NCBI RefSeq assembly: GCF_000002985.6
Contig: NC_003279.8
Location: 9,548,001-9,612,000 of the forward strand
From: Caenorhabditis elegans
Taxonomy: Eukaryota > Nematoda > Chromadorea > Rhabditida > Rhabditidae
Length of the DNA: 64,000 bases
Reading direction: 5' to 3'
Of the stretch, positions 10,033-57,837 are shown one piece after another. The notes under the pieces were generated by a model that saw nothing but the letters and a program-made list of their open reading frames with translations, did not search any database and was not told the DNA's origin. Both the position numbers and the translations under genes were made by a program. How positions within the stretch are numbered: the stretch's first letter is position 1; the number at the start of each line of letters is the position of its first letter.

Positions 10033-10791
10033 ACATTTCATTTTACTACGTGTTGTGTGCAATTAATGATTTTTTAGGAATATAAAATTTTTATTTAAAA
10101 CATCAAAGCAAAAAACAGAAATACAACAGGTGTCAATACCCATATACAAAAGGTTCATGCATTACCATCTGCCATATCATTAGACTCTTCCGACATATTA
10201 ACGCGCCCACTGAGTATTGTTTTGATTGAGGGAGGCAACATAGAAGGCGACAACGAGAATGAGATGAAGTGACCCGTAAGCATTGGAAAGCAGGCCGACA
10301 AGAAGTCGATAGGTAATCGCTCATCTCTTCTTCCGATAGGCCAATCAAATCGATCCGTGTAAACACACCGGATGCATTCATTCATAGATTACTGTCTCAA
10401 TGTTTGGACTTGTTTGACTTTGTTTTATGGCGGCATTATGGGAAAGGGAATGTGTTTTGGGAGATTAGAAAGATTTGGATTTTGGGTCAAAAGGGACCAT
10501 AGAGACATTGAAAAGACTACGAGATTAGCTTGAATGTGGTTGATATTTTATGATATTTTTAGAAGTTTTAAAACAAATTTATTTGTAAGCGTTTTTCTTT
10601 TGAGTAATTTATGATTCCATTGAAATCGGAAGCAATTCAAATAATCAGGATATCAATAAAAATGTATCAAAGCAGCTGAATAACTGAAATTTCGCATTTA
10701 ATTCTTTAAAAAATTCGCATATAAACAGATTGAATCTGCGAGTTAACTGATAATATCAATTTCAATGAGATGCACATTTTTCAGAATCAGT
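10033..10791. other. intergenic, 3' flank of ankyrin gene
   Basis: AT-rich spacer between the ankyrin gene and the first tRNA. Minus-strand open frames at 10133-10385 overlap each other and have no splice or start context, so I do not call them. The last ~55 nt, ending in TTTTTCAGAATCAGT, form a 5' flank repeated at the other two copies of this tRNA. Confidence 0.4.
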
Positions 10792-10874
10792 GCCCCGGTG
10801 GCCGAGCGGTCGAAGGCGTGAGACTTGTTCTCATTGGGTTAAACCAGTCGCGGGTTCGAATCCCGCCCGGGGCA
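10792..10874 (+). tRNA. damaged class II tRNA (nev-tRNA-Ile type), pseudogene likely
   Basis: 83 nt. The acceptor GCCCCGG pairs with CCGGGGC and the discriminator is A. The D arm, a long variable arm and the T arm (GCGGG TTCGAAT CCCGC) are the same as in the two 85-nt copies at 14353 and 15843. The anticodon stem TGAGA/TCTCA is kept, but the loop reads CTTGT (5 nt) instead of CTTATGA, so two bases and the UAU anticodon are lost. The A- and B-box promoters and a T6 terminator remain, so it may be transcribed but should not decode. Probably a pseudogene. Confidence 0.85.
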
Positions 10875-10920
10875 ATATCTTTTTTCTAACTTTTAAAACA
10901 AGTTTTACCAAAAAAAATTC

Positions 10921-11539
10921 CTTACTAGGGAACCGTCAGAAGGTGCCCACGGCGGGCTCTCAAACATCTTAAAATAGCACTTTAAAGAAGCATTGGAGAG
11001 CCAATTTTCCATATTCACTTTGGTAGCTCATATCTCCGTGGATAAATGTTTTACAGAAAAGTCATCAACTGATAAGTTGTTGATATTGTTGTAACGAACA
11101 AGTTTGTTGTTAAAATTTTTTTACCAAAAAATTTTTGTTTGAGATAAAACCGCGTGAAGTGCGGCAACTGCTGTTGATATTTTTATGCTGCTATTCCGTT
11201 TCTAATGATTTTCTCGCAAACAAAACTTTTTTGGTAAAAAACTTTCAAATACAAACTTGTTCTTTACAACAATATCAACAACTTTTTAGTTGATGACTTT
11301 TCTGTAAAAAATTTATCCGCGGAGATATGAGCTACCAAAGTGAATATGGAAAATTGCTTCGTTAGATCGTTAAAGTTCTTCCTTACAGTGATATTTTAAG
11401 ATCTTTGAGAGCCCGCCGTGAGCTTGGTTCTGGAGTTTTGCAAAAATTTCACGAGTAACCGTTTTAAGACATGCACTATCGAATGGCATAGGTCTTATAT
11501 GCAAGTCCGATGGGCACCTTCTGACGATTCCCAAGTTAG
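10921..11539. repeat. palindromic (foldback) repeat element
   Basis: Imperfect inverted repeat. The left arm runs from CTTACTAGGGAACCGTCAG through CACTTTGGTAGCTCATATCT to about 11130. The right arm is its reverse complement from about 11220 to TGACGATTCCCAAGTTAG. The right arm carries ~90 extra bases (about 11420-11510) that break the symmetry. There is no transposase frame. It looks like a non-autonomous MITE-like element inserted in the 3' flank of the neighbouring tRNA copy. Confidence 0.75.
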
Positions 11540-12552
11540 AAGAAAAAAAAATCCCACTCACTAATTTTTCTATTTCTAATTGTATTCACTAAATTGCCTC
11601 TCATTTTCCACCCTTTTTTCGAAAATTAAACAAACGCTCAATTCCCATCGAACTTGAATATAAATCACTCTAAACATGCGTTAGTTCTTTGCCCGCACTC
11701 GCAACTTGATAAATGGTTTTGAATTTCTGTTGAATTTACATTTTTCGATTAAAATTTGAAACCTTTTTTCTCATCAGGAAGTATATCTCCTTTGGCGGTT
11801 GGATTATGAATGTTTTTCCATTTATTTCGCTCACCACGCGTCTTCATTCCTAGAACTCAATTTTTCATTTAAACCTACAGTAGAACGACGGGTGGTCCGA
11901 TGTGTAAAATAGCTCTTCCTATCCTCGTGTTTACATCGGTCGTTTACATCTGAAACGGCGGTGGCGGCGCCACGAGGACAGTTGTTTGAGAGTTGTTTCA
12001 CGAAAACGGGGTTGTTATCAGTGGATACCATCTTGGACGGCTGCTCTTCGTTTTTGAGCAACAAGACATGACAAGATGGTGAATGGGATTTTTTGATTGG
12101 AAGGAAGAGGTATGTTGTACGAATTGTCGATTGGAACAGAGTTGATTATGGATTGAAAAGGGATTCAAAATTGGAAAGATTAGAATTATTGAAAAAATGA
12201 ATCTTGACTCTGACACTTCTGATCAAGACTGCCCATTTCGTATGATAATCATAATTTTTTAAATTCAAAAATTCAATGTAAAAAAAAGGTAGAAAATATT
12301 TTACTTGGTCGAAAATAAATTTTTTTCATTGGAAAGTTTTATTTCCGAAACTCAGTGAAAATTGACATTTGCCAAAAAAAACTTAGCCTCATGTTGTTTG
12401 CAAAAGAAATCTTTTAGTCAACATTTTGGGCTCTTTTCAAACTGACGAGCAGAAAATTATTATTATTTTCCAATAAATCAAATACTTTTCTAATTCTTCA
12501 TAATAAAGTTTAATTTTAAAATGTGGATTATCGAACAGAAACGGACAGTTTG
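11540..12552. other. intergenic, nothing firm
   Basis: AT-rich. Overlapping minus-strand open frames at 11831-12064 and 11998-12216 show no domain, signal peptide or supporting splice sites. I see no confident feature. Confidence 0.3.
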
Positions 12553-14270: not shown

Positions 14271-14352
14271 ATTTTCTATTTAACTCTTAGTAAAAACTTC
14301 GAGTTAACTGATAATATCAATTTCAATGAGATGCACATTTTTCAGAATCAGT

Positions 14353-14437
14353 GCCCCGGTGGCCGAGCGGTCGAAGGCGTGAGACTTATGATCTCATTGG
14401 GTTAAACCAGTCGCGGGTTCGAATCCCGCCCGGGGCA
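14353..14437 (+). tRNA. nev-tRNA-Ile(UAU): class II tRNA with UAU anticodon
   Basis: 85 nt. Acceptor GCCCCGG/CCGGGGC, D stem GCC/GGC, anticodon stem TGAGA/TCTCA with loop CTTATGA (anticodon TAT), a long variable arm (TTGGGTTAAACCAGTC), T arm GCGGG TTCGAAT CCCGC, discriminator A. A long variable arm belongs to Leu/Ser tRNAs, yet the anticodon reads AUA (Ile). This matches the nematode-specific V-arm (nev) tRNAs, which are reported to be charged with leucine. A T4 run follows as a weak terminator. The 5' flank is shared with the other two copies. Confidence 0.9.
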
Positions 14438-15842
14438 ATATACTTTTGTTATTACTTTTAGGGTTTTTTATTATTTAATTTCCAATTGGAAATTGTTGAT
14501 TCTGAATCTTTATTCTTTATCTTATACTTTAATATGAAAGTTCATAAATATTGTTTACATTCTCATCAAAACTTGTTCATCGGCAAGTAATAAAAGAGTT
14601 ATAATCCATAACTGATTACCACGTGTAACTTGATATGTACCGCCCTTTTCTGCCTATTTGTCGCATTATGCAATGCACGGGGCGATTCAAAAAGATTCGA
14701 CCTCTTCTAAACAGTTATAATACTACCTTGTTTGCAAACCTTCATGCCAACAGATAATACTTTTCTCAAGATTACCAGTGTCCAAAGTGTGTGAGGGACT
14801 GATTTATGCTCATGGTGAACAGGAGAGAAAATTAAATGGATTGAATGAAAGAAAAGGAAGTGAATAGAAAAGTGAAGGGATATAAATTTCAAAAGTGTAA
14901 CCAATGATTAGGGCTTCCAAGTGGAAGGTCGATTAAGAAAAGTGAAGGGTAAAGTTAGTTGATTCAAAAGTCAGGGACTGAAGCTAACAACGTTACCAAG
15001 GCCTTCAATGAGATGTAGTTCAGATTCTGTAAATGGTAATTTCAGAAACCGTATCTTCACATTCCGGGTAGGAATGTGATCCTGAAAATTTTTAAGAGTC
15101 GAAGCCTGCCAGCAGCTTTAATTTCGATCTGATTTTTTTTTCAGTTTGCACTGCTTTCAAGATTTTTGGGAAATTTTACATTTTTGAAGAAAAAAATCTG
15201 AAATCATTTCGCCAAACTCGATCAAAAACAACTTCAGTTTTTTTAGAAATAAAAAATGTTTTTATTAGTATAGCCTTCCAATTATCAAAAACTAATTTGA
15301 AGTATACGTATACGTTGAAATGTGTCAGACATGACACTACATCAATCTCAATCACACTTCCTGTCCTCCTTTACACAAAATTCAACTTTTTGCACTTATT
15401 TACAATGCGATGACGCAAATCATTGAATAACTTTCAAGAACAGAAGTAGACATATTCTCAAATGAACAGGTGCCTTCACTCGAGAAGTCGTTCTTCGGTT
15501 GCGCAACGTGGCAGACGGCTCCACCAATTTGACACTTGTGTTTATTTTACAGTCAATTGATACTTCAATGACACAGAAACAGGGACTATTGCTAGAATCA
15601 GAATTTGATTTTATGTTTGAAGAAGAGGAATATTTTGTTTTAAGAGTCTTGGGATATTTTCAGGTGAAAAAGTTGGTAGAATTTTAAAAAACTTTTTCCT
15701 TTAGCGTTTGCTTAACTTTCGAAAAAAGTTAGAAAATGAGAGGCAAAATACTTACAATTAGTGAATATATAGTGGCAATTATTTTTCTTCTAAGGAATAT
15801 TTTTTTGGTAAAACTCTTCTTAAAAGTTAGAAAAAAGGATAT
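14438..15842. other. intergenic between tRNA copies
   Basis: AT-rich. A plus-strand frame at 15499-15687 (62 aa) is acidic but has no start or splice context. The last ~120 nt (about 15720-15842) are the 3' flank of the minus-strand tRNA and match the 3' flank of the first tRNA copy (TTTTTTCTAACTTTTAA, then AGTTTTACCAAAAAAA). I see no firm gene. Confidence 0.4.
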
Positions 15843-15927
15843 TGCCCCGGGCGGGATTCGAACCCGCGACTGGTTTAACCCAATGAGATCATAAGTCTCA
15901 CGCCTTCGACCGCTCGGCCACCGGGGC
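15843..15927 (-). tRNA. nev-tRNA-Ile(UAU), minus-strand copy
   Basis: Reverse complement identical over all 85 nt to the copy at 14353, including the CTTATGA anticodon loop and the long variable arm. A T6 terminator (ATATCCTTTTTTC) follows. The conserved upstream segment (GAGTTAACTGATAAT ... GCACATTTTTCAGAATCAGT) is present, so the duplicated unit includes more than 50 nt of 5' flank. It lies in inverse orientation to the other two copies. Confidence 0.9.
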
Positions 15928-17491
15928 ACTGATTCTGAAAAATGTGCATCTCGTTGAAATTGAGATTATCAGTTAACTCACAGATTGAAGCCTGTTTGTG
16001 GGTGAATATTTCAGCCAGATAAATGTAAATTTTCAGTATCTTAGTTTATTTTCCTCGAGTAATTTCAGAATGAGACGTTATAATTCAGCAAATTATATTT
16101 CTGAATCGTCTATTTAGATTTCAAGATTTCTAGAAGATTATCTTAGAAGATTGAAAATTTCTAGTAAATCATTTAGAATAATCTTATTTCGCTATTAAAA
16201 TATCAGTTGTAAAGCATTAAAACCATCATATTTGCACAATCATTTAACCTCTTCACAGTACCCACCGGATTATTGTAATTAATTGTTCAAAGTTTACGCA
16301 ATCTCCGAGATTATGACTACTTAATTTACTGTCTGTTTGATTGTTTTGTCGGTAAGTTATATTGTGTCGGTAGTCGTCTAGTTGTGCTATAAACGGTATT
16401 GCGTAAACGATCAGTGAGTCGGAAGAAAGTGATATAAGGAAGGAAAGGACAAGGACGGAAGGATAAAAGAATGACGTAATTGGAAGATGATGAGAAGAGA
16501 AAAGAGGTACCAATACAAACACTTGCAGATCAATAACAGATGGACTGTGGCCATTTAATGACAGATGTTAATAACTGATCATCATCAAAAAAGGTGTTTT
16601 AATTGATGACCGGAGGGACTTGTGGTTCATGGGAATGTTTTGTACTCAGAGAAGGGACACAAATAATCTAAAACGAATTTTTAGTCGGATTTTAGAATTG
16701 ATAGAGTTTATATTCTACAATCTTTAATTTAGAAGAATACAACTTTTGAGTGTATCTGTAAAATTTGAAAATAATTATTTCATTTGATTATGTTGGTTCC
16801 AAGTATACCGTATTTTCCCAATTAGACTTGCGCGTTCCTTGCTCTACTTTGGTGGCTTATATCTCGGATATTTTTATCAAAACATGTTTCGCTAAAAATG
16901 TAGAGAAATATTTTGCACGTATTTTGCCAGTCGATAGTTTTTTTGAAAAAATAATGGAAACGGAGAACTGTGTTTAATAGGAAAAATACGACAGTGAAAT
17001 TCAAATTTGGAAGTCAAAAAATAAGTTTCAGAAAGACACAATGAATCAGGTAGCTAACATCCGAGTGATTGAAAAATATTTTCTTCTGAGTTATCAGTTT
17101 CACTGATCTTATTGTAAGCTTATAGTCAGGGAGCAAATGCAACATGCTTTTCAAATATTTTTATACATATTTATACAAAGCCGAAAAAATTATTCTTTTT
17201 TGTAGAACAGCGTAAAACTAATTTCTAAAGTTCTGTAAATTTGACCAAAATTTCAGATGCCGACTTGAAAGTATAGATAGTTATGTTTTTACAACTTAAA
17301 ATATTTTTTTTACAACTTAAAAAAACACACTGGAAAAATGTGCGAGATGGTTATTTAGTACCTTAAACCTCTGCTGGAAATCAGAATTTTTTAAATTCGA
17401 AATTTATTTGTAAAACATAATACAATTAAAAATAATATACACAGAAACTGAAGACACAAAAAGGCATAAAAATTGAGGAAAAGTGAGAGAA
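15928..17491. other. intergenic, with a repeat fragment
   Basis: No gene is recognised. It contains the tRNA 5' flank (to about 15985), open frames without context (16253-16522 minus) and the repeat fragment at 16805-17000. The end serves as the 3' side of rig-5. Confidence 0.4.
16805..17000. repeat. partial dispersed repeat
   Basis: Shares CTCTACTTTGGTGGCTTATA and its surroundings with 14040-14270 in opposite orientation. Same family as the palindrome arms near 11000 and 11330. No coding capacity. Confidence 0.45.
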
Positions 17492-20400
17492 TTAGAACCC
17501 GTGGTAGACAAAGTAGATTATTGTGATGAGCAGAAGTGATGGGAAACTGGCTGAATCCACTTGAATTGCTCGGAGCTCTGGAAAAATTATAGTTTTAAAG
17601 TTTAATTTTTGGCTTTTTGCCGCAATTTTTAAACCAATTCTAATAACTTTCAAATCACCAACCCGAAATTATGTTCGATATATATTTGGCAACATTTCCC
17701 AAAAAATTGTTAAAATTGGTTGATAAGCAGAAATTTCCCAATTAATGCACTAGGCTTCAATTTTTAATTTTGAAATTGAATCTTTCTAGAATCCCAGTTT
17801 TCAAAAAATTGTCTTAAGTGTCAATTTTATGTCAAAAATCCAAGTTTCTTGAGCTTTCTCACGGTCAAGAATGGAAGAATGTTGGTTGGGAAGTTAAGAC
17901 ATTAATTGATTCTATGAATTATGATTTCTTAATTTATTCTCTCTGTTTGTCTGTTTCGACCCCTCAAATATTTTTTCTCATAAACTCAGATTTTCCATCA
18001 TTTGATCACAGAATGAATGACGTTTTTTTTGTTTTAAAATAGCATGCCTGAACGTGTAGTTGGAGCATTCCGAGATTCATGCCGACGAGCTTGTGAATAA
18101 AATTCCAATTGAGGAGGTGATTGTGAATCTTCTTCTTCTGAATCTGAAATTATACATAAACATACATGCGATATTTGAGTGCTCAAAATGTGCTCTAACA
18201 ATACAAAAATTGTAATTTACACTATTTTGAAATGATTTTTACATTGAAAGAGCATACTTCAAGGAGCAACAACGTTTTTTTTTAAATGTGAAAAGTAGTT
18301 TCAACACTCAAAACAAACAGTGAAGTGTGAAAAAGTGAGAGGTGCAAAAAAAACCAAAAAAACGAAAAAGCGACCATTCTTTTGATTCTCCAAATTGTCT
18401 TCTTCCTCGTCTGCTTCATCATCTTCAGAATATCCACGTGGCATTCCAGAACCTGAAAAGGTGAAAGTGCGACAGCAAACAAAAAACATTCCGAAAAAAT
18501 GTGGAAATTGAGAGAAATGGGAGCAAATAGAAGTAAAGCTTAAAGTGCCTAGAAGCTGAAAATAATCGAAAACACCACTATAGAATATCTAAATAGATGG
18601 TTTTTCAAGAATTCTATTTTCTATAAGCCGAAAGAATAAAAACCGATAGAAAGTACTTTCACAAAGCATTGAAAATAAAATTTAAAAGCTCACCTTCTGG
18701 AATTAAATTCGAGTTTGTGAAATGATTGTGAGAGATCTCTGAAAAAAAACTTAACTTAACTTTATGAAATATTATGTATCTTTATTATGAGAGCTCTTAT
18801 GCATATTTTGCAGAAAGTTTTACATACAAACGATAAATTTGGAATTTTAAATATAAATTGCTGCTCCATTTGACACATACTCGTTTTCAATCAAAAATTA
18901 TTAGCAATTAACTTACGATTAAGAGTGACTTGTGAATGATGGATTCCATTGTCATTTTTGGCAACGCACCGATAAACTCCAAAATGAGATGATTGAACAT
19001 TTCTAATTTCAAGAATGTGAACACTGTGGTATTGACCAGATACAGTATGCGTCTGAAAATTGTTCATGGGGCTTGTTGGATATTCTTTTCCCCTAGGCAA
19101 GTAATTTGCCTTTCTGTTTGAATTTTTAGAGAGCTCGATCAAATTTCTAAATCTGATTTTTAGTTGTCAAACTCAAGAAAATATTATATCATCAACTAAA
19201 AAATTAGTTTACAAAAAACAAATAAAATCTAACCATCGCAACATTGTTACTTTCATAAACTGGTTCTCCATCCTTTTCCCATCCCATTTCCGGTCTTGGC
19301 CATGCTTCTGTTGTGCAAACCATTCTTGCCATTGAGCCAACACTTGCTTGCACTGTTTCAGATTGAGCTTGAACGAGTGGGGGAACTGAAAATAGGCTAA
19401 AAGTAGTAACGCCAGTAAGGATTTTGTCTAGATAAGCAAAACGACCGAATAAAACACTCCAAAATATTTTGAATTAAAAAAATTCCAGTCAAAGTGTTGG
19501 AAAATTGCAAATTTTTGAAAAATATGAGCTTTTAAGGAATTCCAGAGCAATGTCGCATGTTCCGACCCCTAGAATATTTTAACACAAATAATTAAAACAA
19601 AATCAGAGTATAAAAGGTATGGAAAAATTACTGCTTGCTTCAAATCTTATAAATTAATTTTTTCAATCATATCAATTATTGGAAAAGAGTACATATAAAT
19701 AGCTATAATCTAGATCCCCTTTACCAGTAAGTAGTGTCTCTAAATCGTCGTTGTTGTCAATTTGAATTTCATGAATAAAATTGGTAGATACACACACACA
19801 ACGACAAACACTTTTTCACTTCTTTTTTCTAAAGTTTCTCTTCTCACCCTCCAAAATAAAATGATGTGCTCGGTTTAAAATTGGACAAAAACTACGTAAA
19901 ATGGAGGAAAAGATCTCTTGAAATAGAATAGAGAAGGATGAATTCTAACCGAAGAAGAGAGGGAAAATAAGAAACAAATTGTTTCGAAACAAGGTGAAAT
20001 ATAAGTAAATTGATTGAAAGTATGAGTCATTTAAGAGAAATTCCGGAGCAAATGGAACATTTCAATGCCTCATATAAATTGAATTTTGTGAAAGTACTTA
20101 CATGTAACCAAAAGCTTGACAGTCCAAGATTCATCAGGTGGAATTCCATTACTTGCAACACAAAGATACTCGCTCATGTGTTTTCTTGAGACTTTTGTAA
20201 GATGAAGAACAGGTCCATGGAACACACTTGCTGAAATGAGAAAATTCAGAAAAAATATAAACTTTGAATATTGTTTGTATACTATAGTTGTCAACGAATT
20301 ATTTATCTTGCAAACTTGTGATGTTTCTGGGTTTTAGTGAAACAAATTTCAAATTGACTTTAGCTTTCCCTTTTCATTTTTCCATGCCAATTGACTCTTG

Positions 20401-57755: not shown

Positions 57756-57837
57756 GCAGCGATGTCCGAGTGGTTAAGGAGTTGGACTTGAAATCCAATG
57801 GGCTTTGCCCGCGTAGGTTCGAACCCTGCTCGCTGCG
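57756..57837 (+). tRNA. tRNA-Ser(UGA)
   Basis: 82 nt. Acceptor GCAGCGA/TCGCTGC, discriminator G, anticodon stem TTGGA/TCCAA with loop CTTGAAA (anticodon TGA), variable arm TGGGCTTTGCCCGC, T arm GTAGG TTCGAAC CCTGC. A long variable arm and the UGA anticodon fit serine. TTTTGCTTTT follows as terminator. Intact A and B boxes. Confidence 0.95.

Follow-up and report, generated by a model that had tools for sequence, protein, structure and literature searches.

Two known nev-tRNA-Ile(UAU) genes in Caenorhabditis elegans, their conserved upstream leader, and G37 beside U36

The two genes at 14353-14437 (+ strand) and 15843-15927 (- strand) of the window, which is the whole 64,000-nucleotide stretch analysed here (chromosome I, C1:9548001-9612000, of the nuclear genome of the nematode C. 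elegans), are genuine tRNA genes and are already known as nev-tRNA-Ile(UAU), published in 2012 and 2015. They are probably genes under constraint for weakly expressed tRNAs that accept Leu and take little part in decoding, with a start-site element of their own. While the pair itself is known, the conserved leader 5' of the genes and the clash between U36 and G37 in the anticodon loop are new leads.

The first-pass annotation had described the pair as identical class II tRNAs with a UAU anticodon; its positions and strands are right, and the copies are identical over 85/85 nt. The covariance-model check that it proposed gives, for each copy, a match to RF00005 in Infernal of 62.9 bits (E 2.8e-11, gathering threshold 29), and ARAGORN calls both tRNA-Ile(TAT). 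The long variable arm is present, with a variable region of 16 nt and a 3-bp arm, as in class II tRNAs, and the anticodon UAU, which is neither a Leu nor a Ser anticodon, lies within the loop CTTATGA. The cloverleaf is intact in both copies, with 0 non-standard pairs flagged in the covariance alignment, from which the fourth D-stem pair was read by us as G13-A22. An energy fold of the 14353-14437 copy (z = -2.59, 3/200 shuffles equally good) recovers the acceptor, anticodon, 3-bp variable, and T arms, but departs from the covariance model in its pairing of the D arm and of part of the anticodon loop. The gene has A and B boxes, A73, a good acceptor stem, and a T run shortly 3'; the first such runs, candidate Pol III terminators, are TTTT at 14444-14447 (+) and T6 at 15831-15836 (-). 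The tRNA status of the pair is far beyond chance expectation. Of the two outcomes that had been named in advance as counting against this reading, a lack of mature transcript and a best structural model with the anticodon elsewhere, neither is seen.

The first nev-tRNA paper is reportedly that of Hamashima in NAR in 2012. According to the main text of the later study (Hamashima 2015 PLoS One, PMC4300185), which cites the 2012 work for this point, nev-tRNAs are charged in vitro with Leu solely, in agreement with the charging by LeuRS that had been put forward for the pair. The same text reports that nev-tRNAs are expressed weakly, are CCA-tailed (including nev-tRNA-Ile), and are exported, that their anticodons are unedited in about 30 clones each, and that mistranslation by nev-tRNA-Gly was undetected when the proteome and a GFP-LacZ reporter were examined by mass spectrometry (MS). 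The published Caenorhabditis nev-tRNA-Ile(UAU) shares organism, anticodon, and class II variable arm with the genes in the window, which by all signs are the genes studied there and are correctly named. The genes as such show no difference from the published ones; G37, the leader, and a broken copy are added observations. The main text of PMC4300185 makes no mention of position 37, t6A, a pseudogene copy, or an upstream or promoter leader. Nothing on the leader or on a U36-G37 clash in nev-tRNAs was found in the nev-tRNA literature searched, although the 2012 NAR paper may cover either.

The anticodon loop would suggest that AUA is read poorly. G37 and A38 are present in all four nev types that have a 7-nt loop (nev-Ile, -Gly, -Arg, and -Lys), with U36 in nev-Ile, -Arg, and -Lys and C36 in nev-Gly, and A37 is present in 5/5 canonical U36 types that could be read (Ile(AAU), 7 copies; Ile(UAU), 3; Lys(UUU), 14; Lys(CUU), 9; Ser(GCU), 8). 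The canonical tRNA-Ile(UAU) genes, three of which were found by one pattern that may miss others, contain an intron and carry A37, whereas nev-Ile carries G37. Nearly all tRNAs for ANN codons have t6A37, according to PMC4717488, where loss of t6A in yeast is reported to raise A-site occupancy at seven codons, AUA among them, and to lower it at seven others. An efficient AUA decoder would have A37, the substrate for t6A, beside U36; nev-Ile has G37, and since G37 cannot be t6A its reading of AUA should be poor, G37 being the probable weakening feature. G37 and A73 are Leu identity elements in yeast, so a feature that aids Leu charging may at the same time spoil the reading of AUA. As a counterpoint, nev-Gly also has G37, there beside C36, yet PMC4300185 reports GGG decoding by nev-Gly in a cell-free system.

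It had also been suggested that the pair could recode AUA as Leu. The parts of this proposal that stand are the reported Leu charging in vitro, the CCA tail, and the export; recoding itself is unsupported so far, given the null MS result for nev-Gly, the weak expression, and G37 beside U36, and it is unproven and, judged from the genes, unlikely at bulk level. The U36-G37 step would speak against bulk recoding and would fit the published null result, that null being nev-Gly's. In the proposed mechanism, Pol III type-2 genes would give rise to a class II tRNA of leucine type whose anticodon is UAU, and this Leu-tRNA, with U36-G37, would be unable to carry t6A37 and would be outcompeted by the canonical intron-containing A37 tRNA-Ile(UAU). 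AUA would then stay Ile in bulk protein because nev-Ile, without t6A37, loses to the canonical tRNA.

Rather improbably, nev-tRNA-Ile(UAU) might nevertheless insert Leu at some AUA codons, at a low level, under stress, or in certain tissues, and be missed because Leu and Ile have equal mass. Indeed, an Ile-to-Leu swap was not sought in the experiments described in the main text of PMC4300185, as the residues are isobaric and the swap is invisible to MS, and this blind spot would favour such insertion, as would the in vitro Leu charging, maturation, export, and unedited anticodons (about 30 clones each) reported there. The conservation of the gene bodies points the same way, as do the four intact nev-Ile genes set against three canonical tRNA-Ile(UAU) genes, a count made by one pattern that may miss others. 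The U36-G37 step, the weak expression, and the lack of detectable mistranslation by the sister nev-tRNA-Gly in either the proteome or GFP-LacZ (PMC4300185) argue against it.

The nev-Ile gene, used as query against the genome (100,286,401 bases, 7 contigs), matches 9 places. These are four identical nev-Ile copies, of which C1 has three and C6 has one, a loop-shortened copy at 96% identity, a C3 match at 80%, and three C1 matches at 78%. The three 78% matches are nev-Gly(CCC), of which there are three full copies and one that is 5'-truncated, and the C3 gene reads CCU and is nev-Arg, a gene that was missed by two pattern searches because of a D-loop insertion. Pattern and copy counts are, as this illustrates, lower bounds that depend on the pattern. 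A nearby C3 gene (C3:6724080-6724300) reads CUU and is nev-Lys; in it A replaces the near-universal U at position 33. On C4 (11721080-11721300) there is a nev-type class II tRNA in which the anticodon loop, as interpreted here, is 11 nt, with leader and T run intact; ARAGORN labels it Pro(tgg). A further class II tRNA at 8.78 Mb on C1 (8781110-8781290) has a 6-nt anticodon loop, G73, and a TTCAGAA leader, in the form TTCAGAATG. Viral contigs and bacterial contigs contributed 2 matches each, in records with viral or bacterial titles.

Identity among the nev-Ile, -Gly, -Arg, and -Lys genes and the C4 gene ranges over 64-83%, and the best match of each is another member of the group. The sister types nev-Gly, -Arg, and -Lys are like nev-Ile in their class II body, G37, A73, and TTCAGAAYC leader, and differ from it in the anticodon and, for nev-Lys, in A33. 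The body of nev-Ile is of Leu type, with A73, and is closer to the nev family (75-83% to nev-Gly, -Arg, -Lys, and the C4 member) than to the seven canonical Leu/Ser sequences compared, which left out Leu(CAA) and reach at most 68%. The nearest of these seven, at 68%, is tRNA-Leu(UAA), which shares the class II form, A73, and G37 with nev-Ile and differs in its UAA anticodon and in being without the TTCAGAA leader. Recent one-step descent from tRNA-Leu(UAG) or (AAG) was rejected, the identity being 57-59%.

The four intact bodies are identical over 85/85 nt. With the loop-shortened copy included, each of the ten pairwise comparisons among the five nev-Ile copies gives 30-32 identical positions in the 32 nt upstream, and the last 20 nt upstream are identical in 5/5. 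The flanks beyond these borders have diverged. Downstream of +12, the copy at chrI 9563843 aligns to that on chrX at 75/101 positions (74%, gaps excluded; score 43, shuffle maximum 23), and upstream of -32 it aligns to that at chrI 7960837 at 177/264 (67%; score 37, shuffle maximum 27); several other flank pairs among the ten are no better than shuffles. Were the genes unconstrained at 74% identity, the probability of 32/32 would be 6.5e-5 and that of 85/85 would be 8e-12, as simple powers. The first-pass annotation had offered selection or recent duplication as the reason for two intact copies; selection is favoured by the identical bodies across four loci against flanks at 67% and 74%, while recent duplication alone is rejected as the origin of the whole family, given that the chrI and chrX 3' flanks are still alignable yet 26% diverged beside identical bodies and leaders. 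Gene conversion could equally hold the copies identical, but would have to end at functional borders.

A third copy, probably a pseudogene, is present at 10792-10874 (+). It is 83 nt and differs from the intact genes in the loop alone, where 2 nt are missing and one further nucleotide is changed; as the remaining loop is 5 nt (CTTGT), the copy has no normal anticodon and no intact cloverleaf. The ARAGORN label Glu(ctc) is not credible. Its first T run, a candidate Pol III terminator, is T6 at 10880-10885 (+). The 5' flanks are common to copies in the window, with 94 nt at 98% between 10733 and 14294 (tRNA part counted), and the intact pair is contained in a 154-nt inverted repeat with 96% complementarity. 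Such local direct and inverted repeats, the broken loop of the one copy, and the weak expression reported are what would be expected of decaying anticodon-mutant pseudogenes spread recently by local duplication. That explanation is already disfavoured and is very unlikely, given four identical bodies on two chromosomes between flanks at 67-74% and a leader conserved throughout a family that has four anticodons. Just 3' of the broken copy, 10945-11423 contains inverted repeats nested one in the other, with arms of 148 nt (92%) and 46 nt (89%), that look like a palindromic mobile element.

A conserved 32-nt leader lies 5' of each of the three copies in the window, at 14321-14352 (+), 15928-15959 (-), and 10760-10791 (+), with TTCAGAATC at 14341-14349, 15931-15939, and 10780-10788, respectively. 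The genome contains five exact matches to the 20-mer GCACATTTTTCAGAATCAGT, all of them abutting nev-Ile genes, and the other matches listed differ from it at 2-3 positions. The core of this 20-mer, TTCAGAAYC (-12 to -4), is present in 11/11 full-length nev-type genes found (5/5 nev-Ile, 3/3 full nev-Gly, nev-Arg, nev-Lys, and the C4 gene) and is absent from the truncated nev-Gly. In the last 25 nt 5' of 47 control tRNA genes, which are not a random sample (30 class I genes of the three top-scoring families, 3 canonical Ile(UAU), and 14 canonical Leu/Ser), TTCAGAA is found in none, and the leader as a general feature of C. elegans tRNA genes was rejected on this count. The shorter TTCAG is present in 2/47 (L022 and L083). 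The second of these (C2:8631920-8632120), the sole carrier of TTCAG in that interval among the 14 canonical class II controls, is a variant tRNA-Leu(UAA) with a change in the anticodon stem and has ATTTTCAG close upstream.

Across six nev-type representatives, mean pairwise leader identity is 11.0/16 nt (pairs 8 to 14), and none of 20000 random sixes of controls is as similar (mean 6.15/16, sd 0.39, maximum 8.27). The leaders of nev-Ile and nev-Gly are identical at 14/16 positions, their bodies at 75%; between distant members the likeness is weaker, nev-Gly and nev-Lys having 8/16 against the control mean of 6.15. The leader could hitch-hike with the gene through common descent, or might be a 3' splice site, its core fitting the C. 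elegans 3' splice consensus (TTTTCAG). As a candidate lead, it may be a Pol III start-site element or be related to TFIIIC or TFIIIB, and it would then confer family-specific, low or conditional expression.

Together with an A box and a B box, TTCAGAA has 55 hits in the genome, against 8 for its anagram ATTGACA, and chance was rejected for the whole set of hits. The word itself is 2.75 times commoner than ATTGACA in the window (44 vs 16), so that 8 x 2.75 = 22 hits would be expected and the 24 without tRNA-like boxes fit chance. The remainder are 12 class II genes and 19 tRNA-like elements, the latter chosen by eye from the 55, with a simple box test passed by 16 and failed by 3. All 19 tRNA-like elements are in an outer quarter of a chromosome, the right-hand one for I and V and the left-hand one for II, III, and IV, compared with 2/24 chance-like hits and 0/12 class II genes in the same quarters; outer quarters only approximate the true arm borders. 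Extra-TFIIIC sites, those on CeRep3 repeats among them, are defined by bound TFIIIC with little Pol III and TBP. According to PMC6950938, such sites are over-represented on those five arms, and 214/504 are on CeRep3 tRNA-like repeats, and we infer that the 19 elements are CeRep3. A CELE45 identity was dropped because CELE45 is reported in dense clusters on X (PMC8457455, in the part consulted) and 0/19 elements are there.

These elements have A and B boxes as the nev genes do, and some have the TTCAGAA leader, but they are unlike nev genes in lying at chromosome ends and in having no match to RF00005 (9/19 scanned with Rfam). The same nine gave two sub-threshold mascRNA matches at 21 bits (gathering threshold 42.5), and ARAGORN found no tRNA in the two loci given to it, L100 and L102. 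The latter (C2:2950090-2950460), which accounts for four of the 55 hits, consists of tandem 155-bp tRNA-like units, each with TTCAGAA, an A box, a B box, and a T run. In six tRNA-like elements, three of them of the closest type, at loci fetched for other reasons, exact TTCAGAA is found in none, with one near match, which would suggest that probably only a subset of tRNA-like repeats carries the leader.

The nev genes might therefore be thought to be chiefly TFIIIC-binding DNA elements, or a source of non-decoding RNA, rather than translators. The 19 elements with TTCAGAA on the extra-TFIIIC arms, set against 2/24 chance-like hits there, are in keeping with this, as are nev-Lys (no U33) and the chromosome IV member (11-nt loop), poor decoders that retain the A and B boxes and the leader. 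This is nonetheless unlikely, as nev-Ile has a good acceptor stem, A73, and a CCA-tailed product, exact TTCAGAA is missing from the six elements fetched for other reasons, and the 12 leader-bearing class II genes are in mid-chromosome, 0.49-0.70 along the contig, with none in the outer quarters on the sides for which extra-TFIIIC sites are reported.

What the 2012 and 2015 papers leave as a question is why nematodes retain tRNAs whose amino acid does not match the anticodon, and G37, for decoding competence, and the TTCAGAAYC leader, for control of expression, make this question testable. A speculative answer, to which only a small chance is given, is that the nev genes are a separate Pol III unit, with a ATTTTTCAGAAYC-like start-site element that is common to extra-TFIIIC repeats and absent from ordinary tRNA genes; this element would keep hazardous Leu-charged tRNAs low or conditional, while G37 would hold Leu identity and cripple decoding. 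If true, this two-layer safeguard would explain a conserved misacylated tRNA without recoding of the proteome. A leader that proved to be a real Pol III element would be a private upstream element of a single tRNA subfamily in an animal and would tie that subfamily to extra-TFIIIC repeats.

Elsewhere in the window there is a normal tRNA-Ser(UGA) at 57756-57837. Within the tRNA cluster, two minus-strand ORFs at 11834-12145 and 15732-15965 have no match in Pfam, and an ankyrin-like ORF at about 6.8 kb has a Pfam score under the cut-off. Of three Ig-domain ORFs at 18891-20333 (-), one is above the Pfam cut-off, and another matches contactins in PDB (E 1.6e-9) and a Dpr-interacting protein; from these matches the ORFs may be read as a neuronal IgCAM-like gene.
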